Below are positions 8,970 to 57,345 of a DNA stretch of 64,000 bases, one piece after another. The translations under genes and the position numbers were made by a program. The stretch is from positions 6,691,901 to 6,755,900 of the forward strand of contig JASSKH010000010.1 of NCBI GenBank assembly GCA_031763025.1. The letters run 5' to 3'. Origin of the DNA: Macrocystis pyrifera (lineage: Eukaryota > Sar > Phaeophyceae > Laminariales > Laminariaceae). The notes beneath the pieces were generated by a model. That model had not been told where the DNA came from. It saw only the letters and a program-made list of their open reading frames with translations, and ran no database searches. How positions within the stretch are numbered: the first letter of the stretch is position 1; each line of letters starts with the position of its first letter.

Positions 8970-9502
8970 ACACCTCGAATAACGTAACACTCGGATAATA
9001 GTTATCTACGTTATGGGGCCTAACACAGGAACGTGGTAACGTACTAACACAGTGTTAGCACTAGAGGAGCAATCACGGTAACGCAGTAACACAGTGTTAA
9101 ATGGAAACCCACGAACGTGCACGAGCCTTAACGTTATGTTGCTGCTTGGTCTCGTCCAGCTCTGGTACAGTAACATTATGTTATGCCGTGATCAGTCCTT
9201 GAACTAACACCGTAACACAGTGATAGGCTTTGACCAAACACGTACGTTATCACTCTAAAATTCCCAGATCGATATCCGCATATTTACTAACACGATAACA
9301 TGATGTTATTGTCGACGCAGCGTTAGACGTAACACAATAATATTATTTTACCCTTAGGAGGAGTGTTATACATATAACACCCAAAGAGAACGTTACCATG
9401 TTCGCCAGCACCACTAACACATAACGTTGTGTTACATATAACACACTAACGTAACATAACTCAATGGCCAGCACCACTAACACTACGTTATCTGGACCCC
9501 CC
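8970..9502. repeat. Left terminal array of TAAC...GTTA palindromes
   Basis: Dense imperfect palindromes such as taacacagtgtta at 9,045-9,057 and 9,087-9,099, and many near relatives (taacattatgtta, taacatgatgtta). They are spaced every 20-60 bp, in both orientations because the motif is self-complementary. The array is interrupted by copia copy 1 and continues at 15,993-16,175. This looks like a subterminal binding-site array rather than a satellite, because the spacers are not repeated. Confidence 0.85.
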
Positions 9503-9758
9503 TGTTCGTTTGGATCGTTCCAGCAGCGACGGTTACAAGTTGTAGAGGGTTGCGTATATCTTCGCAGGCGTTATTATGAATTATGCCGTGTGTTCACGAG
9601 GAGAGTTTGAGCACTCCGTTCTCTGCTCCGTTCTCTGCTCCGAGCTACGAGCTAGGCTCCGCTCTCTCTCCCCTCCTCTGTCCTCTAATACAACGATTAT
9701 AAAGAAACTCATCAGACCACGTGGTGGTCAGGGCATCCAGGCTTGGACTCTACGAACA
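9503..9758 (+). repeat. 5' LTR of copia copy 1
   Basis: 256 bp, TG...CA ends, TATA-like ttataaag at 9,697-9,704, with repeated ctccgttctctg motifs upstream. Copies in reverse orientation bound copia copies 2 and 3. Confidence 0.92.
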
Positions 9759-9804
9759 CACTAGTGCTACTTGAACGTTTGAGGTCTAGTACCAGAAGCC
9801 CACG

Positions 9805-10509
9805 ATGCCCTCGAAGGGATCGGCTCAAGGAGAGCCCGACTCTCCAAGTGACGTTGAAACGCTGCGACGCGAGATCGAACTGGCGATGGAGAAAAGAGAG
9901 GCGTCGATGATGAACGCCATGAGGGACATGATGGCCGAGTTCATGAGGAACAACGGCCGATCGGAGTCCGGCAGCGCTGTGAGTAGCGCTGCTGTGGGGG
10001 AGAGCCCACAAGGGGCAGTACCCACTGCTGTAAGAGAGATTGCAGCAGAACAAGAGACAAATTTGCGTGAGGGCGCCTCGCCAGATTTGGGAGCAACTGG
10101 ACGCGGAGGAACTGCGTTGCCTGTCGAGGTTGGCCCACCGAGGGGTGAGCCAGACCAGCACGGGAGGACAGGAGGAAGGGGTGCATACCCCGGCGGTGAG
10201 TTGGGTGGTGGATTTGATCTGCCTCTATCGCACCATTTGGCCTTCAAACACACTCCTGTGCCATCGTTTAGTGGGCTAAAATCTGAGTTCAACCCCTGGA
10301 CAAGAGACGCTCGGTATTACGCCAAAGGAGTTGGTTTCTTGTCTGCTTTCGTGTCGGATCCACCACAGTACATTCCCGTAGGGGAATTAGACACCGAAAA
10401 CTCGATGCTTGTCGCTAGGGGGTTTAGCCGCGAAAGTGTGCACAGGCATACACTGGCATGGAATTTCCTGTCGACGGCCCTCAAGAGCAAGAGCGATAAA
10501 AGCATTTAG
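9805..10509 (+). pseudogene. gag: copia gag, N-terminal part ending at an in-frame TAG
   Basis: The ATG at 9,805 starts 234 codons with an acidic/Met-rich coiled-coil-like N terminus (SDVETLRREIELAMEK) and a Gly/Ala linker. The start of the copia gag core follows (SFSGLKSEFNPWTRDAR). TAG at 10,507-10,509 interrupts the core, and the same frame continues with AWDALLAWYGPQTTGAK, as expected for gag. Copy 3 has the identical TAG (58,083-58,081). Gag would form the cytoplasmic capsid of the element. The TAG could be a family-wide nonsense mutation or a readthrough site. Confidence 0.85.
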
Positions 10510-11783
10510 CACCGGTGTACCTCGCCGAGGCAAGCGTGGGACGCTCTCCTTGCGTGGTACGGCCCTCAGACGACGGGGGCCAAATCAAACCTCTCCCGAC
10601 GCCTTAACAGTTTTAAGATGGCGCCGGGGAGCAACCCGCTCGAGGAGATGGGCAGGATCGAGGATCTTGCCGCGGAAATGCGAACAGCAGGAATGTCAGT
10701 AGACGACCACATGCTGTACACCATATTTATTGACGCTCTGCCTGCCGAATACGAAGTGGAGGCTCGGAACCTGGCATCACGTGACAGCATCGGCCGTGAT
10801 GACATCATCAAGGCTGTTCGAGAACGGCATCACCGACTTTCTGGAAACAGGAAGAAGGGGTCCAACGCTGGCCACGCAGGCCATGCTATGTACGCCGGCG
10901 GCGGCGGCGGCGGTGGTGGTCGCCGGAAAGGCGGAGGAAATAGCAAAGAAAAAGATGGACGACGGGGCCACGGACGAGGCGGTAGAGGCTCCAACGAGGA
11001 CGGTGGTGGCTCGGCCGCGGCTGCTGGTGGCAATGGTAACGACGCCAAAGCCGCCAGCGGAAGTACTCCAGTGGGCAAGTGCCATAGGTGTGGCAAGAAG
11101 GGCCATTGGAGGAGCGAGTGTACGGCGAAGCTATGCAGTCGATGCCAGGGACGCGGGCACTCTGCCGATGCCTGTCCCATGTCCACGGATCGATGCAGTC
11201 GATGCAACGGGCTGGGGCACGCTGCTGATGTCTGCCCGTCATCGAAAGAAGAAGCTGTCATGGCGGTGACGAGTAAGGATGGGGCAAGGGACGACGACCC
11301 GGAAAAAGGTACGGTCCAGGCCTCAGCTTTCAAGGCCGAAGAGACAGGCAAGTGGAGCGACGGTTCGGGGGAAGGGGAGTCTGCTTGGCAGGTTGGAGAC
11401 GAGGCTTGGATATGTGATAGTGGTGCGTCTACCCACATGACGCCCTCCGCTGACTGCATGATCAATTATAGAGAATGCAACTTGACTCTCCGAATCGCTG
11501 ACGGATCTACCCGAGCGATCGAAGGTTACGGTGACGTGAGTGTTGTCTTTCGGTCCGGAAACGGTCCCGTGCAAGTGCTGCTTACGAACGTTGCGCACGT
11601 GCCGGATCTCCGCTACCACATATTTTCCCTGCCCACTCTGGTCAAAAACAGCCATACTTTCGAAGGGTGCCCCACGGAGGTTGTAATCAGGCTCAAGTCG
11701 GAGCGTTCGATCGTGTTCCCGTTGAGTGGGACTCTCTACAGCCTATACGGCTACCGGGTCGACCGCAGTTGTGGGAAAAATGA
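10510..11783 (+). pseudogene. gag-pro: copia gag C-terminus, zinc knuckles and aspartic protease
   Basis: In frame with the upstream gag after the TAG. The gag core resumes (EEMGRIEDLAAEMRTAG, ALPAEYEVEA) and is followed by a Gly-run/Arg-rich segment. Three CCHC knuckles come next: CHRCGKKGHWRSEC (standard spacing), CSRCQGRGHSADAC and CSRCNGLGHAADVC. The retropepsin active site is WICDSGASTHM, and YHIFSLPTL is the usual copia protease tail. A 10-bp deletion relative to copy 3 at about 11,781 shifts the frame so that protease is separated from integrase. Function would be RNA packaging and polyprotein cleavage. Confidence 0.88.
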
Positions 11784-12818
11784 CTCGCCCCGGGACAACT
11801 GCCCAACAAGTCTGCAATCAACATCAACGATTTCCACTGCGCTGCTGGACACTCCCACGAGGTACTACTTCGCAAGACCGCGGAGCAGCAAGGGATTGTC
11901 CTCAAGGGAAAGCTGCTGGAGTGCAAAGGGTGCTCCATGGCAAAGGGTCTCCGCAAAGGTATCAAGCAGTCCACACACACACGAGCAGATAAGAAGCTCG
12001 GGAGGGTTTTTGTGGATTTGAGTGGACCAAAGGTGGTAGAGTCTCTCGGGCGGAAGCGGTATACTCTCATCGTGCGCGACGATTTTTCACGGTATACGTG
12101 GGTGTACTTTATGCGCCACAAGTCGGACGCCGCGGAAATGTTCGAGCTGTTCCTTGCGGATTCTCGTGCAGACGGTGTCCCTTCTACGGTGGTAATCGTC
12201 CGATCTGATGGGGGTGGTGAATTCCGCGGGGGAAATTTTGGCGACCTGTGTAGATCACGAGGGATCAAGCAGGAATTCACGACGGCCGACAGTCCCCAAT
12301 ACAATGGAATAGCAGAGCGCGCGCTAGGTTTGATAGAGACGGCCGCAATGGCGGGCCGAATCCAGGCTCAAGAGCTTTTTCCTGGCGCGAAACTCGCGGC
12401 CACGCCGTCGTTGTGGGCAGAAGCGTCCCACTGGGCGTGTGACGCCTTGAACCGCACAGCAACAACAGCTAACCCGCAGAGCAAGTCGCCACATGAGATG
12501 TGGCATGGTAGCACCCCCCCGGTAGTACTACTGCCCTTCCTCAAGCCTGGCTATTGCAAGGTGAAGAGGGAAAACAAGTCACAGGCGAAAGTGCAAGAGT
12601 GCTTTTACCTCGGCCCTGCAACAAACTACCCCGGTGATTCAGTACGAGTGCTGACAAAGAACCGCACTGTGCTAATAACGCGCAATGTCACCTGGCAACG
12701 CGTGTCGCCTGCACCACCTGTACCTGCCCAGGCGAATGACTCCCTGTCTACGGAAAAGGGGGGGTCAGAGGCAGACGACGTGAGCACGTCGGATCGAGGT
12801 GGTGGGGGGGGGTGGTGA
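11784..12818 (+). pseudogene. int: copia integrase, frame-separated
   Basis: Contains the pre-integrase H-x4-H...C-x2-C (HCAAGH ... ECKGC), then the core with FVDLSG, RSDGGGEFRG and QYNGIAERALG, giving D, D and E with the usual 35-residue spacing. The frame is lost in a G-run at about 12,810 (ggtggtgggggggggtgg), where the linker continues in another frame. It would join element cDNA to host DNA in the nucleus. It is not continuous with protease because of the deletion near 11,781. Confidence 0.88.
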
Positions 12819-13377
12819 ATGAGCTGGACAACGGTCTGGCTCACTTGAACGACCTCGACGTGACGTGGGGTTTTGACCTGGACGCGTTTATGCAGGAGCG
12901 CGCACAGCAGCCACCTGCCGCCGGCGAGGCCGGCGGCGAAACACCCGAGACGATGGGTTCGTCTCAAGGGGGCGCCGTGGACGCCTCCTCGGTCCCGACA
13001 GGGAGGGCCGAAACAGCCGAGACGATGGATTCGTCTCAAGGGGGCGCCGTGGACGCCTCCTCGGTCCCAACAGGGAGGGCCGGAAACGACCCGGGCGCAG
13101 CATCAGCCTCCGACACCGGGCAAGGGGACGGTGAGGATCCCCCCGCGGTCCTGTCGGGAAGGCCAGCACACGAGCTCAGCAGCTGGGGCCGGCTCCCCCC
13201 GACTGTACGGGGCCTGACCCGGGGTCAAAGCCAACGCCTGGAGGGTGAACCTGCTGTGCACCAGATAAGGATGGATGAAAGGACCGCAGACGCGCTGCTT
13301 GCGGCAGCGTACGAGTCGTGGACGAAGCCTGGGAGTAGCTGGATCGTACGCCCTGGACGACGGAGGACGCAGTGGCT
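12819..13377 (+). pseudogene. copia linker between integrase and RT
   Basis: A 189-codon ORF overlapping the end of the integrase frame. It holds a duplicated 26-residue module (ETMGSSQGGAVDASSVPTGR repeated as ETMDSSQGGAVDASSVPTGR), then Pro/Gly-rich sequence. The same duplication is present in copy 3, but the segment is deleted from copy 2. No catalytic motif. The frame ends just before the RT ORF. Confidence 0.75.
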
Positions 13378-14292
13378 TTGATGGCCGGAGGACCTGCTGT
13401 GGAGAACAAAGGGGAGTTGAGCGTGTGCATGCCGAGTGGTTTCCCGGAAGACGTAGAACCGCCCCCACAGTCCGTAGCAGATGTAGAGCGTTCTCAATAC
13501 AAAGCGGCGTGGCACGAGGCCATGAAAATTGAGTTGGACGGTCACAAAACGACCGGTACGTACGAAGCCGCGACACCGCCAAAAGGGCGGAAACCTGTAG
13601 GTGCGAAGTGGGTGTTTACCTACAAGACGGATAAGGATGGCTTGATAGTAAAGACAAAGGCCAGACTTGTGGCTAAGGGTTTTAGCCAGGTGCAGGATGT
13701 AGATTATTTTCAAACGTTTGCACCGACTCCCTCGTCAGCGTCAGTTAAAATTCTGGCGGCTGTTGCGAATGAACATGGTTTAAAGATTTTTCATCTAGAC
13801 GTCGCACAAGCTTTTGTTCGCGCGAAACTCGACGCCGAGATATACATGAAACTGCCCGGTGGGTGTGGTGACATGTCAGGAAAGATCGTCCGCCTAAACA
13901 GATCACTGTATGGTCTAAAGCAGAGCGGACGGCAGTGGGCCGGATTATTGGTAGAGACCGTGGTAGAGTACGGAATGGAGCAGTGTAGGTCTGACCCGTG
14001 TGTGTTTCGCATGGTTGTGGACGGCAAGGTAGAACTGATCATGGCCGTTCATGTAGATGACATCGTGATCGCAGGATCGGATGAGACTTGTAGAGATTTC
14101 CATGCCGCGCTAGCTATGAAATTTCCCACGAATAACCTTGGCGAACTGACTTGGTACACTGGTTGTGCTTTCAAACGCGACTGGGAACTGGGGACATTGG
14201 AGATTACGCAGAAGGCGTTCATTGAGAGCATGCTGAATCGTTTTGGTGTTAACTCATCCTCTGATATCCCCGCGACCCCGGTGTGGAACTAG
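13372..14292 (+). pseudogene. rt: copia reverse transcriptase
   Basis: 306 codons of copia RT: GAKWVFTYKTDKDG, RLVAKGFSQ, FHLDVAQAFV (first catalytic Asp), SLYGLKQSGRQW and the catalytic box AVHVDDIVI. The ORF closes after PATPVWN because one C is missing from a C-run at about 14,280; RNase H continues in the next frame. Copy 2 carries the same region intact. Confidence 0.92.
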
Positions 14293-15005
14293 GTCCAAGA
14301 GAGGAGGGCGAACTTGGAGGAGACTGGCCGTACAGGGAGGCTGTGGGCAGCTTGATGTGGCTGTCGACCATGACGAGGCCGGACATCTCGAACGCTGTGC
14401 GTGCTGTGGCGCGCCACTCCCACAACCCAACGGAGAGGCACTGGAAGGCAGTTTTGAAGACTATGGCTTACCTCCACGGGACCAGGTTTATGGGATTGAC
14501 TTTTGTACGGGGCTCGGGTTTGGATTTGACTGCGTATAGTGATGCTGATTATGCGGATAAGTCGAACGATAGGCGCTCGGTATCGGGGACGGTAATTACC
14601 CTAGGGGGTGCGGCCGTCAGTTGGGCAAGTAGTACGCAGAGGTGTGTTACGTTGTCGACAGCAGAAGCAGAGTATGTCGCCCTGGGTGAAGGGGTGAAGG
14701 AAGCTTTGTTTACGGGCGCGGTGTTGTCGTTTATCTGTCCAGAGCTAAGCGGATCATGTGTCCGGGTTTTCGAGGATAACCAGGGGGCCATAGCGTTGGC
14801 TGAAAACCCTCTTAGTTCTGCTCGGAGTAAGCATATCGACGTGCGTTTTCATTTTGTCAGAGAGCTACTTCGTGCTAAGAAGATCGACATTCAGTTCGTA
14901 GCTTCGGAAGAGCAGCACGCGGATATTTTGACGAAATCCCTTGCTGCGACCCCTTTTAAGTCTCATCGTAGGTTCTTGTTGAATCTGCCTTTGGAGGGTG
15001 AGTGA
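14283..15005 (+). pseudogene. rnh: copia RNase H domain
   Basis: 240 codons with TAYSDADYAD, STAEAEYVAL, FEDNQGAIALAE and KHIDVRFHFVREL, then EEQHADILTKSL, the standard copia RNase H series. It would remove RNA from the RNA/DNA hybrid during reverse transcription. In this copy it is out of frame with RT. Confidence 0.92.
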
Positions 15006-15115
15006 GGGGTATGAGCATTATTCGATGAGTACCATGTTTGAGTGATGCGATGCGAGGAATAATTTGTCAGGTCGCCAACCCTGCGCTACTTTGAGGGGCA
15101 TGGGGGGGGAGTAGT

Positions 15116-15528
15116 GCACCGCTTGGCGACCTGACAAATTATTCCTCGCATCACTCAAACATGGTACTCATCGAATAATGCTCATACTTCCCGTACAGCA
15201 GTGGTTCCTACCTCTGCTGGACTTTCTCCTACAGCAACGCTGCCTTCAGCGCTGCCTGAGTAGCTCGGTGGTTTATCCTTTATAAACGAACAAAAGAAGT
15301 ACCTTTGGGCTCGATGCGGCCTCCCGCCGATAGCATCTTCCGGGGTTGATCAAGCCCCTAATCAGCGCCTGGTTTTTCCTTCCTATTGTTCCCCTCCCTA
15401 GTCGTGCGTTCTTTTAACAAAGTGGTTCACTCCACTTGATTTCCCTTTTTCTACCCACGGCAGAAAAAGCGGAAATACGACGTCTGGCGGGACTCGAACC
15501 CCGGACTTCTTTTGTTCGCACCGCTTGG
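15116..15528. mobile_element. 391-bp insert in the copia 3' UTR with 11-bp duplication and inverted UTR copy
   Basis: GCACCGCTTGG is present at 15,116-15,126 and 15,518-15,528, whereas copia copies 2 and 3 have it once with the flanks joined. The insert begins with a reverse-complement copy of the copia 3' UTR (15,125-15,188 matches 15,008-15,078 inverted). It continues with sequence whose reverse complement resembles a related gag (ending near GESPAEVGTTAVRE). The far end has a tRNA T-arm-like string on the minus strand (ggggttcgagtcccgcc). This fits a template-switched reverse transcript inserted during copia replication or a later retroposition. Confidence 0.7.
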
Positions 15529-16589: not shown

Positions 16590-16991
16590 TGTGATATGAG
16601 TAGAGTATTCATGGGCTATAGATATAGATAATACGTTGCAGTCTTGTAGTTCCGCGAATACGACAATAATCCAAAGAATGGATTAACCCGGCGGATATTC
16701 CGTTAGTCGAGAGTATCGTTATTTTAGGAATGTTCCTTGATGCAGATAGGACTACGAAGTGAGAAGTTCTTATATTAGCAGAAGAACGATCGGTAGCCAT
16801 AGGAAAGTTCTGTTGGAGTACATCAGATAAGAGGAATTTAGGAGAGCTTGTGGCGTGGGGTGGGACGAGTATATCTGGCGTCGAGTCCCGCCCCCCTACC
16901 TCTCACTTCTCTACCAGAGCACCTCCTCAGCTCTCGCCATCAATAAGAAGATCTAAATCAGAAGAAGCGAAGCACTGCTTTTCCAGCTGCC
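16590..16991 (+). repeat. Candidate 5' LTR of the gypsy element
   Basis: 402 bp matching 29,047-29,448 with about six differences. It starts TGTGATATG and ends CCAGCTGCC. An 11-bp string gcatcacatct recurs just beyond each copy, so the true repeat may extend slightly past an indel. Confidence 0.6.
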
Positions 16992-19900: not shown

Positions 19901-20029
19901 TTTCTCTCTCCTAGATCGGTTTGTTGGTATTGTAGCCGCCTACCCTGATCCAAGCCTGGATCCACCCGCCCTCTCCATCTTCCACCAAACCTTTTCCCGC
20001 CCCAGTACAAGCGTTCCACCCGCCTAAAC
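16992..20029. other. Long non-coding leader of the gypsy element
   Basis: No gene is supported. The sequence is rich in T- and A-runs (for example near 17,120-17,220, 18,060-18,090, 18,640-18,670 and 18,985-19,005), with short ORFs of no recognisable content. It may be an unusually long 5' UTR or later insertions. A pyrimidine-rich stretch with ctttctctctcctag occurs just before gag. Confidence 0.4.
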
Positions 20030-20584
20030 ATGGCCGAGAAAGCTTCCTCCACCAACATTCCCGGCGCCCACTCCCCCGACGCCACCAACCCCCGCGAGGC
20101 GAGGTATGCCGCAAGGGCCTTTCGCGCTACCGACGACGACACCCCTGGCTTCGAAACCATTCTGAGCGACTTCACGCTACACCCCACCACACCGGGATCT
20201 TCTCCAATGGGAGCAGGCACGACCAGTGCCGGGCCTACCATCAACCCGGAGGTCTCTGCACAGGAAACCTCCACCCTGGCTCTGAATCCGGGGCGTTACC
20301 AAGGCGATCCCACGGCCCTCCGTGAGCGCCGTGCGGCCCTCAAAGCCCACCACGAGCAGCTCCTCCTTCTCGCGAAAGAGGGCGCTGACCTCCTACTCGT
20401 GTTACCGCCGTCCCCCACCCCTTCCTCGAACCCTTTCGACTCCACCTATGGGACTACAGCTGCGACCGCGGCCACCACGGCCCAATCACAGCCGTTCGCT
20501 CCTCACCATGGGCACCCTATACGTCCGCCGCGATGTCTAGGACCACCACCTCCCAGCCTCCCAAAAACCAAACTGGGACCATAA
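20030..20584 (+). pseudogene. gag: gypsy gag-like ORF, N-terminal
   Basis: 185 codons from ATG at 20,030 (MAEKASSTNIPGAHSP). Pro/Thr/Ala-rich with one ordered helix (ERRAALKAHHEQLLLLAKEG). It stops at 20,584, but a frame at 20,533-21,180 carries on. There is no canonical capsid motif I can name. Gag assignment rests on its position upstream of protease and integrase and on its composition. Confidence 0.5.
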
Positions 20585-21180
20585 TGTCCCAGGCACCACT
20601 ACCGGCCCAACCCTTGCCAGCCCCCATACCCACTGGGCACCGGCACCCGCAGACGTTCGGCTTTGAGCCCAATGACTGGGTCTTCCTCGACGCTAAGCTC
20701 CGCTGGATGCAGAGTACACGCGACGCGACGGCCTCGGATGTCTCGCTAGAGGTACACCGTGTATGGCGGCTCTTCACACATGACTGTAACCCGTCGATCA
20801 CTTTCGTTCTGGCCCGCGCCGCCACCGAGGGTGTTTCTTCCGAGTTCATCGGGGCCGCCCATACCCGTTTACTCGAGCCACGGTATTTTCACTCGAACGC
20901 CGGCCGCGGCTACGCGTGGAACCCAACCGTCTCGACCCGCTCCCCCGACACCCTCAACCACCCGCCCCACGACGGACATGCCATCGCCGGCGACACCGCC
21001 GCTTCCCACCTCGACAGCGCCGCCCCCTACGACGACAGCGCCCCGCTCCTCACGAGCGCGCAGCCTGATGACGAGAGCCAACACGGAGCCCACGACGGAG
21101 GCGGAACGTCGTGGTGTCCCACGCCCAAGCCCTACGAGCTCACGGTGACCACTGCCCCAACTGCAATGGCACGGACATAG
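20533..21180 (+). pseudogene. gag: gypsy gag-like ORF, capsid-like part
   Basis: 215 codons in the next frame. A helical central part (EPNDWVFLDAKLRWMQS, EVHRVWRLFTHDC, FVLARAATEG) looks like a folded capsid-type domain; the rest is Pro/Ser/Asp-rich. Near the end another frame has CPNC followed by KTCP, a possible degraded zinc knuckle. The frame ends with TAG at 21,178-21,180, but the same frame reopens at 21,268. Confidence 0.5.
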
Positions 21181-21267
21181 TATGAAGACCTGCCCCCTGC
21201 GCTTAGCAACACGTTCGGCATCCTCAGCCCGGTAGTCGGACACGCCTAGCGCCAATGGCAGCAGAGG

Positions 21268-21759
21268 ATGATGCTCTTATATCGCCGTGGACACTACGAG
21301 CACAACCTGGAGCGAAACTCCAACCGCTACGACAACAACAACCGTCGAGGCAACAACAACAACAACCGCAGCGGAAACTACAACAGCAACCGCTCCAACC
21401 AGAACCACTCCCGCAACTACCGCGGCAACAACGGGCGCTCCGACAACTGGTGCCACAACAACGGCCGGTCATACGACAACGGCAACCGACAGTCGCCAGG
21501 GCAACAGTTCCAACAACAACGCATCGAGCCTGCCCCCCTCGTCTTCCGCGTTGACGGTGCATACCCCTGCGACCAATACCAGCCGCACCTGCCGCCCCCG
21601 CGAACATGCGGATGGGCAGCACCAACTCGGGTACCCACCCGAACCAACGGCAGCCGGGAACCTTCCGCACCAACTGACAAGCCGATAGTGGAGCAACTGC
21701 CGCATCTCCACCAACAGCATCTACTGCGAGCACCCGAGGCTCCCAGGACGCACGAGTAA
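21268..21759 (+). pseudogene. gypsy Asn/Arg-rich nucleocapsid-like segment
   Basis: 163 codons in the same frame as 20,533-21,180 and as the NADAR ORF. Dominated by Asn, Arg, Gly and Tyr (for example NRRGNNNNNRSGNYNSNR), a basic low-complexity stretch suited to RNA binding. It follows the gag-like region and precedes the NADAR domain, the position of a nucleocapsid. Composition only; no catalytic motif. Confidence 0.5.
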
Positions 21760-22329
21760 ATCACGTGCATCACGCCTCCCCGACCCCTGCCCTCCAATGC
21801 CCCCCCCCTACCCCAGCCCATTTCACAGTCACTTGTTCAAGCACTGATCATCTTGCCCAAGTGATTGCCTTGAGGTGTGGGCGGGAGGAGGCCAAGACGC
21901 CAAGCCCCACCGGGATGCTCCACTCGACGTCTTCTGGCGGTGAGCAACGCTGCTTGCAGACTATTGCCGAGACCCCCGACATTGCTACCCTGGGAAACGT
22001 CTCGACGATTACGGCTACCAGCGGTTCCGGTTGACACGAAACTACTGTTTCGTCTACCGGGCCACCGCCCCCTGAGCCTGCCTCATATTGGCCGCTCCAT
22101 ACGCGCTTGTTCCAGCATGCGCGTATTTCTTGTGACACCGTTGAACCCGCGAACGACGGGCTTCCTCCAGCTGCCACGGTGTTGACACCACCGCTGTCCC
22201 TGGGCCTCGAGGGACAGTCCCGTTTTAAATACGGAAGGCTCGCGACCAACGTCGACCAGGGTCTGCCCTGAGCCCCCTGACCCGTCCTCCTCGCCTGCTT
22301 CGCGCAAAGCGTGGACACGGACCCCAGGT
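21760..22329. other. Degraded gag-pol linker
   Basis: No intact gene. The NADAR frame is open upstream from about 22,186 through Ser/Pro-rich sequence (ACG-GAA-GGC onward). 21,760-22,185 has no convincing coding frame. Probably a decayed part of the gypsy polyprotein. Confidence 0.4.
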
Positions 22330-23616
22330 GTGGCATCCCCTAGCGAGTATGCCCCTGTTCTCCAAAAGTTGGACGATAGGGCGCTTGAGGGTCGTCCCGC
22401 CCGGCTTATAAGCCCTGGCGAGGACCGCCCCGGTACCTCGGCTTTGCCGAGCAATTCCCCCGCGAACACGAGGGTTCCGGCCAGCACCGCTCGATCGTTG
22501 CTGACTCTACCTCCGTCGACGCCAGGCGGCGATAGGAAATATTATCGTCGCCCCCCACCCCCAACACAAAAGACGCCATCAACTGCACACGTCACCGCAG
22601 AGGCCGCCTCATCGTTCCACTTCTTCTGGGACTCCTCTTCGGTCTTTCCGCGGTGGTACCTGTGCGACATCGAACACGATGGCGTCACATACAACTGCGC
22701 TGAGCAGATGATGATGGCGCAGAAGGCCGCGCTCTTCGGGGACATCACAACTGAGCGCCGCATCAATGCGACCCGCGACCCGGCCCGCCAAAAAGCACTT
22801 GGGCGAACCGTTTCCGACTTCGACGAAATGGTCTGGGAGCGACACCGCTACACCATCGTCCTCTACATTAACTTCTCCAAGTTCCGCCAACACCCGGAGC
22901 TACGGGAGGAGCTAATAGCAACCGGCGACAAGCACATCGCCGAGGCCAGCCCACACGACCTCATCTGGGGCATAGGCTTCAAGGCCGACCATCCGGACGC
23001 CTGTGACCCGACGCGTTGGCGTGGTCGGAATCTGCTGGGCAGGATACTGATGGACGTTCGAGAAAGCCTCGGCGCCAATCGCTCCGCCCAGCCTCCATTG
23101 CCTCCCCATCTTCACGACCCGGAGCCAACACCCGCCCCCACCGACTCCACCCGGGTCTCCCCCACAGCCGACGGCATCCACGAAACAAGCCCGACCCCTC
23201 CATGGCAACCGCCTACCTCTCCACTTGGGCCACTCCTACCGCCGTCTACCCCCGACGCCTACCCCAGCAGCCCAAGTGTCTACCACCAACACCGCAACTC
23301 ACAGCCACCTCCCTACCCGCCGCCCGCCGATACCGGAACACGGACCATGCCTTACAAGCGGCATCATTACCGTCGACGACGCGGCGTTCACGACGAAAGT
23401 ACTCGTGCACAGCGGCCCCACCGCCACTACGCGCCGCGGGCTCGTGGCACTGCTCGATACCGGCTCGCCCCAGTCGTTTATCACCGCAACCGCGGTGGAA
23501 CAACTGAAGGCTCCCCAGGCAGCCACCGATGCGTGCGAACGGCACAGTTCCCCCCGTTCATGGGGAGGTTTCGGCACTTCAGCCCCCCCTCTCCACCTCC
23601 GTCTCCATCCGCTTAA
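22330..23616 (+). CDS. NADAR (YbiA-like) domain protein within the gypsy polyprotein
   Basis: 428 codons; the start is uncertain because the frame is open upstream to about 22,186 and the first codon is GTG. Residues ~97-247 are a full-length NADAR domain: FHFFWDSSSVFPRW, the glutamate motif YNCAEQMMMAQKA, GRTVSDFDEMVWERHRY, KFRQHPELREELIATGD, EASPHDLIWGIGFKAD and RGRNLLGRILMDVRESL. Spacing and the Glu, Lys, Asp/Trp-Gly and Asn-Leu-Leu-Gly positions are intact, with no stop inside the domain. NADAR proteins act on ADP-ribose-type N-glycosidic bonds, and some remove ADP-ribose from guanine bases. It sits after the nucleocapsid-like region and before the protease, so it would be made as part of the element's polyprotein. 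A role against host ADP-ribosylation is an inference. The C-terminal third is Pro-rich and overlaps the protease in another frame. Confidence 0.88.
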   Translation: MASPSEYAPVLQKLDDRALEGRPARLISPGEDRPGTSALPSNSPANTRVPASTARSLLTLPPSTPGGDRKYYRRPPPPTQKTPSTAHVTAEAASSFHFFWDSSSVFPRWYLCDIEHDGVTYNCAEQMMMAQKAALFGDITTERRINATRDPARQKALGRTVSDFDEMVWERHRYTIVLYINFSKFRQHPELREELIATGDKHIAEASPHDLIWGIGFKADHPDACDPTRWRGRNLLGRILMDVRESLGANRSAQPPLPPHLHDPEPTPAPTDSTRVSPTADGIHETSPTPPWQPPTSPLGPLLPPSTPDAYPSSPSVYHQHRNSQPPPYPPPADTGTRTMPYKRHHYRRRRGVHDESTRAQRPHRHYAPRARGTARYRLAPVVYHRNRGGTTEGSPGSHRCVRTAQFPPFMGRFRHFSPPSPPPSPSA

Positions 23617-23821
23617 GCATCCAGTTTATGCGCCTCCAGTCCCCCACTGCTGCCCTGGCAGTATGGGCCTGCGTAGTTCCTGTAGGAACCATGCAGCACC
23701 CCATCCTTCTGGGACGAGACAGCTGGATGCGCTTCGAGCAACGCTCGTATACCACGCTCCAGCAACAGCCCACCCCCCCCCCACCAACCTCCCCGGCGAA
23801 CCCGCGGTGAGCTCTCCTTGA
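23390..23821 (+). pseudogene. pro: gypsy aspartic protease, two frames
   Basis: The active site LVALLDTGSPQSFI is in one frame (within 23,225-23,821). The C-terminal signature HPILLGRDSWMRF is in another (23,529-23,810), so the domain is split by an indel around 23,520-23,560. D-T-G-S and LLGRD are the hallmark retropepsin ends. In an intact element it would cleave the gag-NADAR-pol precursor. Confidence 0.8.
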
Positions 23822-24480
23822 ACCACCATGACCCCAACGGAGCCTCAGCATTCATTCCCGACGACCGTTCCACTGACGACGTCTACCACCTCCGATTCGC
23901 CGGCAACAAAGCTATATCGCTTTCCTCCACCCCCAAGCCCGTTAAGGTCAACCTGGCGCGCCAGTCAGGCGCTCCAGCATTTACCGGGAACTACATGGTG
24001 AATATGCTCCCCCGCGAGAACCCCCTGTCCGACCCGGCCATTTTCGTCTCCGACGAATACCTAACGGTCCCACTATCTGGATCTACCGATCTCGAGCCGG
24101 GCGACCTCCTCGGAACCTCCTGCTCCCCACTGGTACAGGTACCACTTTCCACCCTTGGACACCCTTCCTTGGCCCCTCCCCATCCCCCTCCGATTCCGGA
24201 TGTACATGCCCTCCACGACAACATCCCCGTGGCCGACCAGAGCCCATCGACAGACTACTCTCCTACCGCACCAAAAGCCCCGTGCCCACAACTTCTGGCA
24301 CGCCTCAACGCCGACCAACGGGAAAGCTTCCTCGACCTCTGGGAACGTCTGCCGTTACACCTACGCGACGTCAACTTCGACCTGCACGGTTCTAGATGAA
24401 CCCCGTCGGTGATCAACAACCTGGGAGACGTCCTCTGCGAATTCCACACAGGACGTCTTCTCCACCACCAAGACTGACTT
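23818..24480 (+). pseudogene. gypsy pol segment leading into RT
   Basis: The ORF 23,818-24,399 runs from protease to PQLLARLNADQRESFLDLWE, the usual pre-RT region. It then breaks, and in other frames INNLGDVLCEF and DVFSTTKTDFGSCPLMPF can be read, which is the RT entry segment. Several frame changes lie within 24,390-24,480. The RT catalytic core does not follow. Confidence 0.7.
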
Positions 24481-24956
24481 CGGCTCGTGCCCGCTCATGC
24501 CGTTCAAGATCACCGTACCCCCAGACAGCCCAACGGCTCGAGCTCCTTTCAGAGTACACCTACACGCTGGAGTACCGGAAGGGCACGACCAACGGCAACG
24601 CCGACTTCCTCTCCCGGCTTCCCCAACCAGCCACCGACGCCGACCGCACCGGACGCAACCGCCTCACTGGCCCCGACACCGTCGGCATCTACCTCATCCG
24701 CCCCTGCGGCTTCGCGCCGAACGACCCTTCCACCCCGGGTATCGGCTTGGGTGGGCTCGTGTCCCCCCCTTCCAGACCCATCCCAACCGTCCAGCCGCTC
24801 CCCTCACCGACGACGACGACTTCCGCGACGTTTGCCTACTCGGACCACGTATGGAGCACCCTACCCTTTCCCCCGCAACCCGCACCTTCCTCGGGCCTAT
24901 TGCGACCCGCGACTCCACCACCGGACAGCTTGCCGGCACCGAGAATGCCGCCGTGA
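24481..24956 (+). pseudogene. RT/RNase H deletion junction and RNase H tail
   Basis: After the RT entry (PFKITVPPDSP, about 24,500-24,530) the sequence jumps directly to the end of gypsy RNase H, LLSEYTYTLEYRKGTTNGNAD followed by FLSRLP. The RT palm and most of RNase H, normally well over 1 kb, are missing. The join lies at about 24,525-24,535. It continues as a Pro-rich linker in the frame 24,396-24,956. Confidence 0.8.
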
Positions 24957-25443
24957 ACACCGGAGCTCCTCCAGGCTCGGCTTCCATGCCGTCCGTCGTC
25001 TCTCCGCCGCCCACCATTGGCGCCACGACACCAGCCCTTCCAGGTCTGATATCTTCTCGGACCCGCCATTGCGTCGCCGCTGCCGCGGGAACCCCTCGGC
25101 CTACATCCGACTACCGGTTTGGACGCCGACCGCCACCCAAACCATTGGCGCCCACTACGCAAAGAGCGACCCCCTCAACAACGCCCTCACCACCGGCACC
25201 AACACCACCGGTAGTGCCCCTTCTTGAGCCCGTCGTCGAACCCGACGACGACCCCTACCTCCTCGCCTGCGTCGAGCACTACACCTACAAAGACTGGGCG
25301 CGAGAAAAACGCGAAACGCGCGGAGCCCCTGTGCTGCGCCACCATCCGCTTCCTTTCGTTGGACTCCCCTAGCCCCACGCCGCACGACCTCCTGGACTTC
25401 ATCCCCCCGGCCCGGCGCCCACAACTTTCGGACGTCCTCACTC
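24957..25443 (+). pseudogene. Linker between RNase H and integrase
   Basis: Pro/Thr-rich, read in shifting frames. HYTYKDWAREKRETR and later PQLSDVLTLASKSKLHRTDD are the kind of sequence that precedes gypsy integrases. No catalytic motif. Confidence 0.5.
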
Positions 25444-26214
25444 TTGCCTCCAAAAGCAAGCTACACCGTACCGACGACGAAACCACCCTCCTGGTTCAAC
25501 GACCACCCACAACCTCATCAGGGCCTACCACCACCCGCCCCCTCTACCCCACGCGTCTACGTGCCAATGTTAATGCGCCCTTGGGTGCTGAACACATGCC
25601 ACGCCACTACCTCTCTACACCTGGGAGTCACCCGAACGGTCCGTATGTTGGCACGCTTCATTTGGTGGATTGGCATGGACGCTTCCGTCCGCTGGTGGAT
25701 CCGCCGTTGCCTTCAATGCCAGGCGCGGAAGACCTCCCGGCACACCATTCGTTGGCCCATCCTTTCTCTTCCTTTGCCCAACGGGCCTGGCATCACCGTC
25801 AGCGTCGACTACTTCGGGCCCCTGCCGCTCACGCCGCGCGGGAACGTCCACATCCTCCTCTTCACAGACCGCTTCAGCCGCCGCGCCGATATGTATGCCG
25901 TTTCAGCGGCGCAGTTCACGGCCGCCGGCACTGCCGACATCTTCCTGCACGAGTACATCCCTCTCTGGGGGTGCCCGGTTACACTTCTCTCCGACAACGG
26001 ACTATACTTCACCTCCAAGCTTGCGAACATCGTCTACGAACGCCTTGGCATCCACAAGGTCAACACCAGCTCCTACCACCCCTGCACCAACGGCGGCGTC
26101 GAGCGCGTCAACCACGTACTGGCCCACATGCTCTCTCTATGGTTGGCAACGAACAGCAGACCGACTGGGACATGCTGCTCCCACACGTGTCGTCGGCCTA
26201 CAACAATTCCGTGA
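25444..26214 (+). pseudogene. int: gypsy integrase core
   Basis: 256 codons. Zinc-binding H/C region (NTCHATTSLHLG ... CLQCQARK), then the catalytic core: VSVDYFGPL (D), LLSDNGLYFTS (D) and NGGVERVNHVL (E), with exactly 35 residues between the last D and E. The frame ends early at 26,214, and the rest of the domain (DMLLPHVSSAYNNSVN, TGLAPYEIHMGR) continues in the frame of 25,224-27,395. It would integrate the element's cDNA. Confidence 0.9.
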
Positions 26215-26830
26215 ACGCCGCCACAGGGCTTGCACCTTACGAAATCCACATGGGCCGCCTTCCTCGCCTCCCGCTCTCGGTCTTCGAACCCGACAATATC
26301 GGCGGTCACCAAAGCCTGGACCGCGATCACCTGGTTTACATCAACCTCGCCACCGACCGACAACGACGCGCCTATTCCATCGTCCGCGAACTACACCGAC
26401 TCACCGTCTCGCGTCTTCAGCGCCGCAATGCGCCCATCATGGCCGCCCTCCTAGCATCCCCCCCCTTCACCGTAGGCGGCTGGGTTTGGGTCTACAACTC
26501 CGCCTCAACCATCCGGCAAGGCGTCAAAAAGGGCACCGACGCAACCGTCCTCAAGACGAAGCTTTCCCTGAACTGGAATGGCCCCTTCAAGGTCCTCGCC
26601 GTAGGGCCGACGCCCGCCTCAAACACCCCCGACAATCGCCCCATTCACCACAAGCTACTTTTCCTCGACCTTCCATCGGACCTTCCGGGGCGGGACTCCA
26701 AGCCACGCGTCTCCGTCCAACGATGCAAACCTTGCCGGAACCCCGACGACACCAGCGACATCCCCAAGCATCTGCCCGCGGACCTTACTACATACGTGCT
26801 CACAGCTTCTGCCGCCAAGTCCCCCCTTAC
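26140..26830 (+). pseudogene. int: gypsy integrase C-terminus with GPY/F-like motif
   Basis: Part of the long frame 25,224-27,395. After TGLAPYEIHMGRLPRLP come a helical segment (YSIVRELHRLTVSRLQRR) and GWVWVYNSA ... LNWNGPFKVLAVGP, the GPY/F module of gypsy integrases. The frame becomes unreliable after about 26,840, where the next domain continues one frame over. Confidence 0.8.
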
Positions 26831-27490
26831 CACGTCACCGTCGACGACGTCACTTCTCCACCGGAACGCCTCGAGGTCGAGCAGCTCACTGGCCATCAAC
26901 TCGTACGCGGCCGCAGCCCCTCTTGGGAACGCGAGCTGGACCTTCAACACTTCCGGCGCCACATCCTACTTTACTGGTCACGATCACCAACCCAGCACCG
27001 CCAGACGAACCGCCTCTACCGCCAGATGCGCATCGGCGCCGCTCACCGCGAACTGGCACGATCTCAAGGACAAATCTTCCTCGCCCCAGGCTACGCCTTG
27101 GTCGCCCGCAGCCTTTGGCTCCACAACTTCAGCACCACCATCCTACCCTCCCGAGCACACATATGGTACAAGGCGCGCGACGGCCTTTGGTGGCTGGGCA
27201 AGGTCGCTCACAGCTCACCCCCTGACGCCTCTTCAGGAACTCCGCCGGAGCCTGCACCGGGAAGCTCCTACATCGTCCGGTTCCTGGACGACCCCGGCCC
27301 GATCAAGATCGACCTCCAACCCGCCCGCTACACTACAGCACGGAACGCCGTATACGGATCGTGGTGTCTTCAACGCCATGGGAATGGGAGCCTAGCACGT
27401 GGGGTGCTGCGGAACTCTGATGTGTCCCGCGGAACCCCCACCGTTTCCACCCCCCCCCCCCTGGTTAGCCTTAGTTTAGTCTTTTGTTAG
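26830..27490 (+). pseudogene. gypsy C-terminal chromodomain-type tail
   Basis: Frame of 25,670-27,490. Starts DDVTSPPERLEVEQLTGHQL, resembling the entry of a chromodomain, but the middle is shortened and it goes straight to SPSWERELDLQHFRRHILLYW. It continues WYKARDGLWWLGKV and IVRFLDDPGPIKIDL and ends after RHGNGSLARGV. Such tails target integration to chromatin in chromoviral gypsy elements. The shortened core suggests the module is no longer functional. Confidence 0.7.
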
Positions 27491-29046
27491 TTCTGGGTAT
27501 TTGGTTCTGGTTAGTCTGCAATATCTTACGAATAGTTCTTCAGGGCTAGTCTTCAATAGTCATCAGCAGCCATCTTCTTGGGAGTGTTTGTTTCCATCTA
27601 CCGCCACCGGTATCGCTTGACCGACCCCGTGTTGGCTACCGATCCGAGGCCGTGTATGTTTTCTTTTTTTTTGGGTGTGTTTGGAAGTATCATCGTCCCC
27701 CCCCACCCCCCCCGTTCTTTTTTCTTCTTATCGTCTACGGCTCCGTGTAACCTCCTTACGTTCAGGCCACTGACTCGTAGCGATACCTTCATTTGCATTT
27801 GTATTTGTACTCCACTAGCCTACAGCCAATTATCGGCGATATCACGCCGAGGTGAAATCGTGTTGTAGCCTGAGCTGTGCTCTGACCTTAGTCGACTTCC
27901 GCCGACCCGTGTTTCAGACGATCCTCGAGCTAAGACTATATCGAGCTTCCAGCTCACCCGTGTTTCTTCCATGTTTGACAAGTAGGGTCCCGATAGCATT
28001 GCCGCCCCGGAAGGCCGCTGAGTTATCGGCCATACATCTGCGGTTCGGACACGATCGATCTCTCCTGACCTGTGTCCAGCTTTTTGTCTATTTTCTGGTC
28101 CCGATGGTATTTCGTTTTCTCTTTCCCTTTTCTTCTTTTATCTTTCTTGTCCGGTATCCCGCACACCCCCTCTGTCCTCTGGCAAACGACACCACGTTTA
28201 ATGTCGCCCCGGTTGACCGAGTTGCACACGCTAGTTTTTGGGCCCCGCGCTATCTACAACTTCGAACTGCACGCATTAGGCCGATTTTCTTGCGGATTTT
28301 CTCGCGATTTTTTTTGCCGCCACCGTCTTTGAGTTTGTTTTTGTTGAGTTGGCTACCTTGCTACGTTTGCTGGTTTTGTTCACACCACGGACAGGTCTCC
28401 GAGACGCCGCGTTGCTTGTTGCGTCTCTCGGTTTTAGTAGTCCCTAGTACACGCAGCCCTCATAGCACTCTAGCTGTGTCCCTTCTGTCTCGCATGATGA
28501 CTGCCATGTTAGGACCTTCGCCACAAGACAAGGCATGGGGCCTAGCGGATATATATATATATATATATGTTTTTGAATTGTGATCGCTGTCTCCTTTTTA
28601 GAGTTTCCTCGTTCGCCAACCCGGTTCAGTGTACAACCCTTTCGTACTTCCCTGGGCCCCAGACAATGGCTCCAGTGAAACGCTTGTACGTCCTTCTTTT
28701 GCCTTCATTTGGGTCTTCGTTTTCTTCTTCGGCCTTCGCTTCGGTTTCTGCCTCATTTTGCGTTCGTCTTTCTTTGTTTTCATTTTGGGTGATTTTTCCT
28801 TTCGCCTCTGCTATGAGTTCGGTGTCTCTCTCCTTTAGTCTCCCTTTCCGTGGTTGTTCGCAGCGAACACCCCCTCTTCGTAGTGTTTGGGGTTTATTAC
28901 GAGGTGTGGGGGGATCTATAGCCTCATTTCTTTTGTTTCGAATAGCCGCATCTTCGACCACCTTTTTCTGGCCGTTCGGGATGAACTTTGTCATCACCCT
29001 CCGACCATCTTGTGGTCTGCATATACGACTATTCAGGGTGGGCTAA
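27491..29046. other. Non-coding trailer of the gypsy element
   Basis: Pyrimidine-rich with C- and T-runs and an (AT)n run at about 28,548-28,568. ORFs such as 27,852-28,583 and 28,567-29,046 are hydrophobic/Ser-rich by composition and show no motif. No gene is supported. A weak purine tract (cagggtggg) precedes the downstream direct repeat. Confidence 0.4.
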
Positions 29047-29448
29047 TGTGATATGAGTAGAGTATTCATGGGCTATAGATATAGATAATACGTTGCAGTC
29101 TTGTAGTTCCGCGAATACGAGAATAATCCAAAGAATGGATTAACCCGGCGGATATTCCGTTAGTCGAGAGTATCGTTATTTTAGGAATGTTCCTTGATGC
29201 AGATAGGACTACGAAGCGAGAAGTTCTTATATTAGGAGAAGAACGATCGGTAGCCATAGGAAAGTTATGTTGGAGTACATCAGATAAGAGGAATTTAGGA
29301 GAGCTTGTGGCGTGGGGTGGGACGAGTATATCTGGGCGTCGAGTCCCGCCCCCCTACCTCTCACTTCTCTACCAGAGCACCTCCTCAGCTCTCGCCATCA
29401 ATAAGAAGATCTAAATCAGAAGAAGCGAAGCACTGCTTTCCAGCTGCC
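29047..29448 (+). repeat. Candidate 3' LTR of the gypsy element
   Basis: Direct repeat partner of 16,590-16,991, about 98% identical over 402 bp. Confidence 0.6.
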
Positions 29449-29914
29449 AGAACAACCTGCGTCCCTTGCCACTACCCTTACCACTACCCTAGACCGTCTC
29501 CGCATCACATCTCGTCTAAATTCCATTTTTAACAAATTTTACAAGCATTGTAATAAACACAAGACTGTTAGCCAATGAAAAACGAAACCTGAACAGGGAG
29601 AGATCTCCAACAATCAGTCAGAAAGCTGACGACGCTCTCTTGGGTTATTATTTTTGCGAGTATATACCGAAACATACGATGAGGATCGCAAGATACAAAA
29701 AAAGGCGAAAAGTGGGAAGTAATCAATCAACTAACTAACAACTGCTGTTGCAAAAAGACCAACGATGGTATGCAACTTTGGGTCATTCTTTTTTCGAGTA
29801 CCGAAACATACGACGAGGATCGCAAAATACAAATAAAGGCGGAAAGTAGAAAGTAATCAACTAACTGCATGCTGTTGTTGTAAATACCGACGATAGTTCG
29901 TATGCAATTTTGTA
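29449..29914. repeat. Degenerate ~138-bp tandem repeat
   Basis: A block with ccgaaacatacgaygaggatc followed by aaaggcgraaag and aagtaatc recurs at about 29,665 and 29,803, and more weakly at 30,168 beyond the MITE. No gene is seen. Confidence 0.6.
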
Positions 29915-30025
29915 TTATTACGGGGGTCCATAGTTAACGGGACCAAATTTTGTTAGTAAAAATAGGTAAATATATAGGTTTTTATGTATACCGTAGGTCC
30001 TATTAAATATGGACCCCCGTAATAG
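29915..30025. mobile_element. MITE, 111 bp, TA target site
   Basis: Inverted termini containing tattacgggggtccatagtt at the left and the matching tatggacccccgtaata at the right, with TA on both sides (29,913-29,914 and 30,026-30,027). This points to a Tc1/mariner-type MITE. A near-identical copy lies at 44,387-44,497. Confidence 0.85.
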
Positions 30026-31028
30026 TACCTGGTATTAGTTTTCAGGATCTACTGCTTGCTGCTGCTATATTATGCGAGTGATGACGCTTTGTTGGCCAAT
30101 GAAAAACATTTTGTGGGTTGTTACACATTCGACAGATTGACATGTATTTCAACTGACGGGTCATTCACGGAAAAATACGATGACGATCGCAAACAAATAA
30201 AGGCGAAACGTAGAAAGTAATCCACTGCTGCCGGCGGCGTCCTACGGTATCCCCCCAAACCTGAAGAAAAACCCATTTTATTTTTTGCCATTCGAGACGT
30301 TTGTTGTACTGATGTACTGATAGACACAATGCATTTTTTTGGATATTCTCTTATGATACTGCTTGGATACAGCACTCTGCAGTACAGCAGTACTCGTCCA
30401 TAATTTTGCTCTGACGCAAAAAGTAACCCACTCCTGTTGTGCTCTAAAAAACCTGCTCTAGTATGCGAATGGAAACGCGAAGTTCACCAAAAAAGTATTT
30501 TTTTTCAGCTGGTGCGACGATACACGATTGACGCTCGATCTCGACAGAGACTCTGCCCACGGGCAACCCGCGCAGTGGCGGGCAAGATCAACTAGTATAG
30601 ATGACGGGCTCGAATAGATGAGGTGGATGCATGCTCTAGGGGGCAAGAGCTTGCCGGCGGCGTCCTACGGTATCCTCCCAAACATGCAAAAAAAACATTT
30701 TTTGCCATTCGAGACGGATGCAGCAGTAGTAGTAGTACTCATAGCTAATGTTTTTCATCTATTTCGTGCACACCAGCGGCCAATGCGCTGCACTGAGCGT
30801 GGGACCCAAGCGTCTGAGCCAACTCTTACTCTTGTATTCATCGCCACCCTTGCACAACAAGACAGCACTACAACAGTAGCAGGCACCTGGTCTGGTGTAT
30901 AGACGTCTCCCCAACTCGGTATGGGCGTCTGAGCCAACTCTTGTATTCATCGCCACCCTTGCACAACAAGACGGCACTACGGCAGTAGCAGGCACCTGGT
31001 CTGGTGTATAGCCGTCTCCCCAACTCGG
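30026..31028. repeat. Repeat-rich non-coding stretch
   Basis: A block with cggcggcgtcctacggtatc and gccattcgagacg occurs twice (about 30,232-30,300 and 30,655-30,716). A ~117-bp tandem pair (cgtctgagccaactct ... ccccaactcgg) covers about 30,800-31,028. No gene. Confidence 0.6.
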
Positions 31029-44220: not shown

Positions 44221-45181
44221 GTGTTATTTTAGACTTGCCGTTATCCATCTATAACACATTACGTTATCCATCTATAACGTAATCTGCACACTCGCACGTA
44301 CGAGTTAACACGGCAGTAACATACTGTTGACTCTAGATTGGGGGTGTACGTTATCTACTAACTTGTGTCACTACTTATATGGCATACTATTACGGGGGTC
44401 CATAGTTAACGGGACCAAATTTTGTTACTAAAAATAGGCAAATATATAGGTTTTTATGTACACCATAGGTCCTGTTATCTATGGACCCCCGTAATAGTTA
44501 ACAACATTAACATAATGCTATTAATAGTGTTTTTATCGATCATACGTTATCCGTATGTTATGTTGTTATGGTAGCAAGACTTCCGTAATACCCTCACATA
44601 ACGTCGCTCGAAACGGACTGCTGCTGCGGCTGATACAGTAACTTAATGTTAACGTATTGACCATACACGTCATCCCTCTAACGTGTGTTACTATAGCCCC
44701 TAGCAATTTCACTAACACACTAAAATAGTGTTATGCACGCGTTTATATGGCCGTGTACGTTATCCGTCGAAAGGGTGTTACGGTAGCACGAAGAATCCCG
44801 ATGACACACTAACATATCGTTAATCGCTACAGGCTGATGCCGCTGACACGGTAACATAATGTTAACGTTTAAGTGACCATGTACGTTATCCCTTTAACGT
44901 GTGTTACGATAGCCACCAGGAATTCCGCTAACACGCTAACATAGTGTTACTCGCTATGGGCTGCATACCCTAACACCGTAACACATATACTGCGGTCAGT
45001 ACGAGATCAAGGTAACACTCTAACATAATGTTACGCGATCGCCCGCCAATATCATAACACACTAACACTATGTTATCACAAAATCAAGAAAGCAGTTCAC
45101 GTAGTAACGTAATGTTACGTGTTTTTTTCGCTGACGCCTAACATTAACATAAAACGTTAAGTGTTACGTTATCCGAGGTGT
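44221..45181. repeat. Right terminal palindrome array of the 36 kb element
   Basis: About 950 bp of TAAC...GTTA palindromes, for example taacatagtgtta at 44,937-44,949 and taacataatgtta at 45,021-45,033, ending in the right TIR (to 45,181). A MITE is inserted at 44,387-44,497. Spacer sequences between motifs are not repeated. Confidence 0.85.
44387..44497. mobile_element. MITE, second 111-bp copy
   Basis: About 95% identical to 29,915-30,025, with ctattacgggggtccatagt at the left and its complement at the right. TA lies on the left and TT on the right. It is inserted inside the terminal array. Confidence 0.85.
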
Positions 45182-55263: not shown

Positions 55264-55312
55264 GACTCGTACGCTGCCGCAAGCAGCGCGTCTGCGGTCC
55301 TTTCATCCATCC

Positions 55313-57330: not shown

Positions 57331-57345
57331 GACAGCTTCTTCTTT

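Follow-up and report, generated by a model that had tools for sequence, protein, structure and literature searches.

A NADAR domain at the front of Pol in a Ty3/gypsy retrotransposon family of the giant kelp: a regular module with a possible role as an ADP-ribose eraser

Introduction

Why would a retrotransposon carry a domain from a family of ADP-ribose hydrolases? The question is raised by a window of 64,000 nucleotides (the whole stretch of DNA analysed here) from the giant kelp Macrocystis pyrifera, contig JASSKH010000010.1, positions 6,691,901 to 6,755,900, in which a Ty3/gypsy element contains an open reading frame (ORF) with a NADAR domain. On sequence grounds we consider it nearly certain that this domain is a regular module of a kelp Ty3/gypsy family, in which it opens Pol, preceded by an Asn/Arg-rich segment and followed by the protease. 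The best explanation as a whole, in which this regular Pol module also serves the element as an eraser of ADP-ribose, has in our estimate a probability of roughly 0.45, and several other explanations of what the domain does are weighed against it below.

A complete NADAR domain with a predicted YbiA fold

A first-pass annotation, made from the sequence alone, had proposed that the ORF encodes a complete NADAR domain with its conserved positions intact. This proposal is borne out by the profile search that the annotation suggested, in which the Pfam family PF08719 matched the window domain with 161.9 bits (E 2e-47), far above the Pfam cut-off of 35.1, and over positions 1-162 of the 163 in the profile. 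The sequence also matched two solved structures, a NADAR from Phytophthora (8bau, E 2.1e-18) and YbiA from E. coli (2b3w, E 8e-8), and the same two structures were found by Foldseek (1.2e-8 and 4.4e-7, respectively, with no other match at E <= 0.001) when we searched with an AlphaFold2 model of the domain, built from 16 sequences and with a mean predicted local distance difference test score (pLDDT) of 90.1. The window domain is predicted by these methods to adopt the YbiA fold.

The residues E43, K50, R79, E125, D130, and W133 of the Phytophthora protein have been assigned roles in the binding or hydrolysis of ADP-ribose (PMC11543638; this and the other papers given by PMC number are cited for the parts of their text that were available to us). 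Once these numbers are transferred through the 8bau alignment, with an offset of two, the window domain is found to keep the counterparts of all six. In the YbiA subfamily, the catalytic position in the last strand is described as Glu rather than Asp or His (PMC11125620, PMC11543638), and we therefore place the window domain, which has Glu at the E125 position, in this subfamily.

A regular module of the kelp family

The next question is whether the domain belongs to the element or only to this copy of it. A profile search of the giant kelp genome with PF08719 gave 1264 first-look candidates, of which the best 150 were scored, and all 150 passed the cut-off. Of these we retrieved 90, spread over the ranking (the top 30, ranks 31-50, 20 mid-list copies, and the final 20), and a protease was found downstream of the NADAR in 88, the other two being L196, which has upstream parts of the element, and L250. 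Upstream of the domain, sequence related to the Asn/Arg-rich segment was found in 45 of the 90. Two queries were used for the upstream side, one taken from the metagenome protein P0078 and the other an out-of-frame linker (named UPL) that contains a stop, so the latter tests the similarity of the stretch and not that of a protein.

Since we wished to avoid choosing copies by their NADAR, the search was also made in reverse, starting from the window protease. It gave 1152 candidates, and among the best 150, which were scored, 76 had a listed NADAR no more than 1.3 kb upstream while 74 had none listed. When 20 of these 74 were read, 19 proved to carry NADAR sequence upstream, although in two of them the domain was partial, with only 72 and 83 of its 150 residues. 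The sole exception among the 20, L264, is a match to the window-family protease without NADAR within 1 kb upstream. Thus, the genome search proposed in the first-pass annotation shows that kelp gypsy copies regularly carry the domain with a protease behind it, and the counts from both directions exclude the one-off insertion that the annotation had named as the finding that would undo its reading.

The arrangement also extends beyond the kelp genome. Among the metagenome relatives of the domain, the same upstream linker is found in P0024, P0057, and P0078, and the same downstream protease in P0001 and P0003. P0024 seems to be an internally deleted relative, in which the first part of the NADAR runs straight into the C-terminal stretch of Pol.

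Two lineages and the origin of the domain

The fetched copies split into two types, a window-like type A, with 65 members if the window is counted, and a more distant type B, with 44 (L161-L176, L179-L185, and 21 others). The medians that follow were taken over 65 copies of type A and 45 of type B, because the latter set still included a misfiled protease-first copy, L251, whose identity is 41% to the type B reference and 61% to the window (142 codons compared, 2 stops). The median identity of the domain to that of the window is 94.7% in type A and 49.0% in type B, and that of the protease to the type A query is 96.6% and 57.0%, respectively. Between the end of the NADAR and the protease, the median gap is 279 bases in type A and 240 bases in type B. 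Given that the domain occupies the same place in both types, at a similar spacing, a single old capture is favoured.

The trees add a complication. Types A and B each form one group, with a support of 99 or 100, and are not joined to each other, although the approximately unbiased (AU) test did not reject a single group of A plus B (p-AU 0.118). The nearest relative of type B is a Myxococcota protein, L081, with 59.1% identity, against 51% to the window, and the best matches of the window domain in the tree comparison are P0059 (52.3%) and L081 (52.0%). Type B joined two Myxococcota rows at a support of 82 in a quick tree, but not in a more careful tree of 53 rows. Neither tree included P0055 or P0039, and the quick one also lacked L254. 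By protein search, the nearest named relatives of the window domain are bacterial (P0068 and P0069), followed by a mussel protein (P0012). Because the two types stay unjoined and each resembles bacterial NADARs about as much as it resembles its counterpart, there may have been two captures. This leads to a bolder scenario, in which brown algae would restrict retroelements by ADP-ribosylating their nucleic acids, and gypsy elements would have responded by acquiring a NADAR from bacteria, carried in Pol and packaged as an eraser, possibly on two occasions at the same site. We consider this whole chain rather improbable, but the kelp family does make it conceivable that the ADP-ribosylation of nucleic acids is directed against mobile elements in brown algae.

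A viral origin was also considered and set aside, as no tree gave a well-supported grouping of the retroelement NADARs with viral rows. The viral relatives came from an alignment-based scan of viral contigs, which gave 477, of which the best 80 were kept; a scan of viral contigs with the window domain alone gave 4 pattern matches, none of which was a relative. P0062, P0024, and P0078 were dropped from one tree, other than the quick and the careful one, owing to their short coverage.

What the domain may do for the element

We tentatively propose, at somewhat less than even odds, that the NADAR is a Pol-borne ADP-ribose hydrolase that serves the element, probably by acting on ADP-ribosylated nucleic acid. 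The domain would be made within the Gag-Pol precursor and would travel in the element's particle, and the protease may release it from the precursor. It could then hydrolyse the N-glycosidic bond of guanine-linked ADP-ribose, or of a related conjugate, on the RNA or cDNA of the element, so that the template might stay readable even where the cell marks foreign or damaged nucleic acid with ADP-ribose. The benefit of such an eraser to a retroelement is now directly testable.

The proposal draws on the profile, sequence, and fold matches, on the regular pairing with the protease, on the hydrolysis of guanine-linked ADP-ribose measured for several NADARs (PMC11543638, PMC11125620), on the low ratio of nonsynonymous to synonymous differences between types A and B given below, and on the conservation of the active site. 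In 10 window-type copies chosen by their protease (those with nearly ungapped domains, out of 20 protease-first copies fetched), K50, R79, and E125 are present in all 10, and E43, D130, and W133 in 9. The 47 window-type copies selected by their NADAR score, a set that counts the window itself, keep E43 in 42 cases and the other five residues throughout. In the 44 copies of type B, E43 is found in 43, K50 in 42, and the remaining four residues in all.

Several observations weigh against this proposal. The ratio of nonsynonymous to synonymous rates (dN/dS, or omega) is 0.98 (0.71-1.47) in the recent type A copies chosen by protease (n=10); thus, the dN/dS analysis that the first-pass annotation had suggested gives no sign of purifying selection in its least biased recent set. 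The recent type A copies chosen by NADAR score (n=47, 5 with a stop inside the domain) give 0.63 (0.43-1.00), but this set is biased because such a choice favours conserved domains; in type B, where all 44 copies were chosen by NADAR score, omega is 0.53 (0.38-0.76). The window-type sets were restricted to copies with at least 142 of the 150 codons aligned, which placed 9 of the 19 NADAR-bearing protease-first copies outside. A value near 1 among recent copies is, however, expected in any case, since copies of a retrotransposon mutate freely after insertion. The deeper comparison of type A with type B (49 x 34 copies without stops, 1666 pairs; mean amino-acid identity 49.2%) gives proportions of nonsynonymous and synonymous differences of 0.350 (pN) and 0.734 (pS) and a nominal omega of 0.16, of which only the direction is safe because the synonymous sites are saturated; moreover, if the two types captured their domains separately, this ratio includes evolution in bacteria. 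Among 8 metagenome relatives compared with the window, 4 have lost one of the six active-site residues (K50 in P0002 and P0058, D130 in P0057, and W133 in P0066), and in 5 the sequence does not extend far enough to cover E43. Finally, P0001 and P0003 are less similar in their NADAR (70.8%) than in their protease (81.3%), though more similar than in the linker (53.3%).

Among the alternatives, the one that survives best, though we still regard it as unlikely, is that the domain acts on small soluble derivatives of ADP-ribose or NAD, such as signals or by-products of RNA repair, so that it would blunt a host alarm rather than clean the template. Soluble targets have been proposed for viral NADARs, most strongly for those of phages (PMC9503650), and the pocket residues kept here are those that bind ADP-ribose in the Phytophthora structure (PMC11543638). 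Against this, the activities described in the parts of the literature that we cite act on guanine-linked ADP-ribose in nucleic acid, whose hydrolysis in DNA has been measured for several NADARs, including one of the YbiA subfamily (PMC11543638, PMC11125620), and macromolecular targets are favoured for the NADARs of eukaryotic RNA viruses (PMC9503650). The tie to Pol would likewise suggest an action near the template.

A little less probable again is a non-catalytic role, in which the NADAR would form a segment of Pol, or of the junction between Gag and Pol, such as a spacer that binds ADP-ribose or nucleic acid and helps in folding or packaging. Its position between Pro-rich linkers, at a nearly constant distance from the protease, would suit such a role, as would the ability of NADAR domains to bind ADP-ribose (PMC11543638) and the altered active sites of half of the metagenome relatives mentioned above. 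A spacer of this kind does not account well for the kelp copies, in which the catalytic-strand Glu is kept in 10/10, 47/47, and 44/44 copies of the three sets and the phosphate-side Lys in 10/10, 47/47, and 42/44.

That the domain is a mere passenger, captured and then copied along unused, is in our view very improbable. The omega near 1 in the recent protease-chosen copies could be read in this way, as could the stops found within the domain in 3 of these 10, but free mutation after insertion holds for a copy of any retrotransposon and says nothing about the active lineage. Moreover, drift should have eroded the fold, the active site, and the mostly open reading of the domain, all of which are kept in two lineages with about 50% amino-acid identity. 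The last alternative is that a host or bacterial gene landed just once, in a single element, or that the arrangement stems from contamination or from an error of assembly. The bacterial and mussel proteins that are the nearest named relatives could have suggested this, but it is refuted by the kelp counts (150/150 scored matches over the cut-off and 88/90 with protease), the metagenome relatives with the same flanks, and the report from Ectocarpus discussed below. We retain the Pol-borne eraser as the preferred explanation.

The window copy and its surroundings

The features of the element in the window are collected in Table 1. Its placement of the NADAR between a nucleocapsid-like region and the protease of a Ty3/gypsy element, as given in the first-pass annotation, is confirmed here, with integrase zinc-binding and core matches lying downstream of the protease motifs in the Ty3/gypsy order. 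The first part of the protease is homologous to the C-terminal part of P0001, although the Pfam protease matches there are weak.

Table 1. Features of the NADAR-bearing element in the window (positions count from the first nucleotide of the window)
Feature	Position	Strand	Evidence or remark
5' long terminal repeat (outer partner)	16590..16991	+	98.5% identical to 29047-29448, 403 columns
3' long terminal repeat (outer partner)	29047..29448	+	pairs with 16590-16991
Gag-like open frames, two frames	19949-20584 and 20389-21180	+	by position; no Pfam match
Asn/Arg-rich nucleocapsid-like segment	21250..21759	+	open frame; no Pfam match
ORF with NADAR, Pro-rich linkers on both sides	22186..23616	+	open frame
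NADAR domain PF08719, YbiA subfamily	22621..23070	+	Pfam, PDB-sequence, and fold matches; catalytic-strand Glu
Aspartic protease, first part	23342..23575	+	DTG motif LLDTGSPQSFIT at 23450-23485; frame differs from that of NADAR
Protease, later part (LLGRDSWMRFE)	23706..23738	+	third frame
Putative remnants before reverse transcriptase and at RNase H end	24470..24617	+	motif positions
Integrase H2C2 zinc-binding domain	25561..25737	+	PF17921, 57.8 bits, above its cut-off
Integrase core	25783..26082	+	PF00665, 26.2 bits, E 1e-5; under the 32.6 cut-off
Conserved C-terminal stretch of Pol	27110..27421	+	87% identical to P0024

The long terminal repeats (LTRs) align over their core (16590-16985 with 29047-29442) with 391 matches, 4 mismatches, and 2 gap columns. 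This outer pair is likely to bound the NADAR-bearing element itself; the assignment is kept at likely and not proven because no target-site duplication was seen by eye directly at the edges of the pair.

The window copy is broken and decayed, given that its frames are shifted and no reverse transcriptase (RT) was found. Each of the two protease parts lies in a frame of its own, different from that of the NADAR, and no Pfam match to RT or RNase H was obtained in the frames scanned between the protease and the integrase of this copy. We take 24470-24544 to be the stretch before the RT and 24552-24617 to be the end of RNase H; since these putative flanking motifs are only 7 bases apart, the body of RT and RNase H seems to have been deleted.

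The Asn/Arg-rich segment and the NADAR had been described in the first-pass annotation as lying in the same frame, which is correct modulo 3 but no further, as four in-frame stops (21757, 21862, 21871, and 22183) separate them. In addition, the first in-frame ATG of the NADAR ORF, at 22708, lies inside the domain, with none before it. Among the copies with a closed upstream frame, an ATG precedes the domain in 18 of the 57 type A copies (a total that counts the window) and in 15 of the 44 type B copies, the latter counted in the split that still held the misfiled L251. No common rule for entry was found, the commonest offset of the upstream stop, 417 bases, being shared by 13 of the 65 type A copies. 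The simpler reading is that the NADAR would be translated within a longer precursor.

The conserved C-terminal stretch of Pol gave no Pfam match, and its structure model, with a pLDDT of 38.9, is not usable. In base composition, 20001-28000 stands out with a G+C content of 0.61-0.63, the remaining 4-kb blocks of the window having 0.46-0.56, and in this stretch C exceeds G (skew -0.24 and -0.28).

The window holds other repeats as well. A Ty1/copia family is present in three copies or part-copies, at 9501-15127 on the forward strand and at 53458-59089 and 45829-47618 on the reverse strand, which are 97.6-98.6% identical; among named proteins, those closest to the one it encodes come from Ectocarpus (56-57%), and further relatives reach 93%. 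Open frames at 60141-63999 on the reverse strand resemble, by eye, a retroelement of the DIRS/Ngaro type, with recombinase-like and RT-like parts. A tRNA-Phe-like match with the anticodon AAA at 44394-44491 falls within a repeat that has a second copy at 29913-30026 (93%), and it is probably not a tRNA gene but a tRNA-like repeat. A search of the whole window with Rfam at gathering thresholds gave no match.

Comparison with known systems

A NADAR-bearing Ty3/gypsy element has already been published, namely the Gypsy-12_Ec32 lineage of Ectocarpus sp. 7 (PMC12477816, Genome Biology 2025), so the kelp arrangement is not new in kind. According to the available text of that paper, NADAR hits outside Ectocarpus were almost only bacterial. 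Among the literature on the NADAR domain that we found, this is the only paper that, by title, concerns transposable elements; a search combining DUF1768 with retrotransposon found none, and the matches listed for NADAR and kelp were, by title, not on this topic. As far as these searches go, what is new is that the family occurs in the giant kelp, in abundance and as two lineages, and that NADAR and protease are almost constantly paired whichever of them the search starts from. A single-species report thereby becomes a pattern, with a second brown alga in which the domain is carried by almost every sampled copy of a large gypsy family, and in which two deeply split lineages retain it with the active site mostly kept.

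The two families share the same arrangement, a likeness that is drawn from the description of Gypsy-12_Ec32 and not from sequence identity. The kelp family differs from the published account in its extent, with 150 matches scored out of 1264 candidates, and in its division into two lineages of about 50% identity. A chromodomain is named for the C-terminus of Gypsy-12_Ec32; the kelp Pol has its conserved C-terminal stretch after the integrase, with no Pfam match and the poor model mentioned above.

More distant parallels exist. In the oyster Crassostrea gigas, Tx1 LINEs carry a NADAR in ORF1 and are thus likewise retroelements with this domain, but they are non-LTR elements of an animal, their NADAR is described by the authors as divergent, and it occupies another place in the element (PMC12477816). 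Nidoviruses, hepe-like viruses, and picornaviruses also have a NADAR inside the replication polyprotein of an RNA-based element, although these are positive-strand RNA viruses, while the kelp carrier is an LTR retroelement (PMC9503650). Lastly, the DarT-NADAR and YarT-YbiA toxin-antitoxin pairs have the same domain, with measured removal of ADP-ribose from guanine, and the YbiA subfamily shares the Glu found in the kelp family, but their NADARs are bacterial antitoxins that adjoin an ADP-ribosyltransferase (PMC11543638, PMC11125620).
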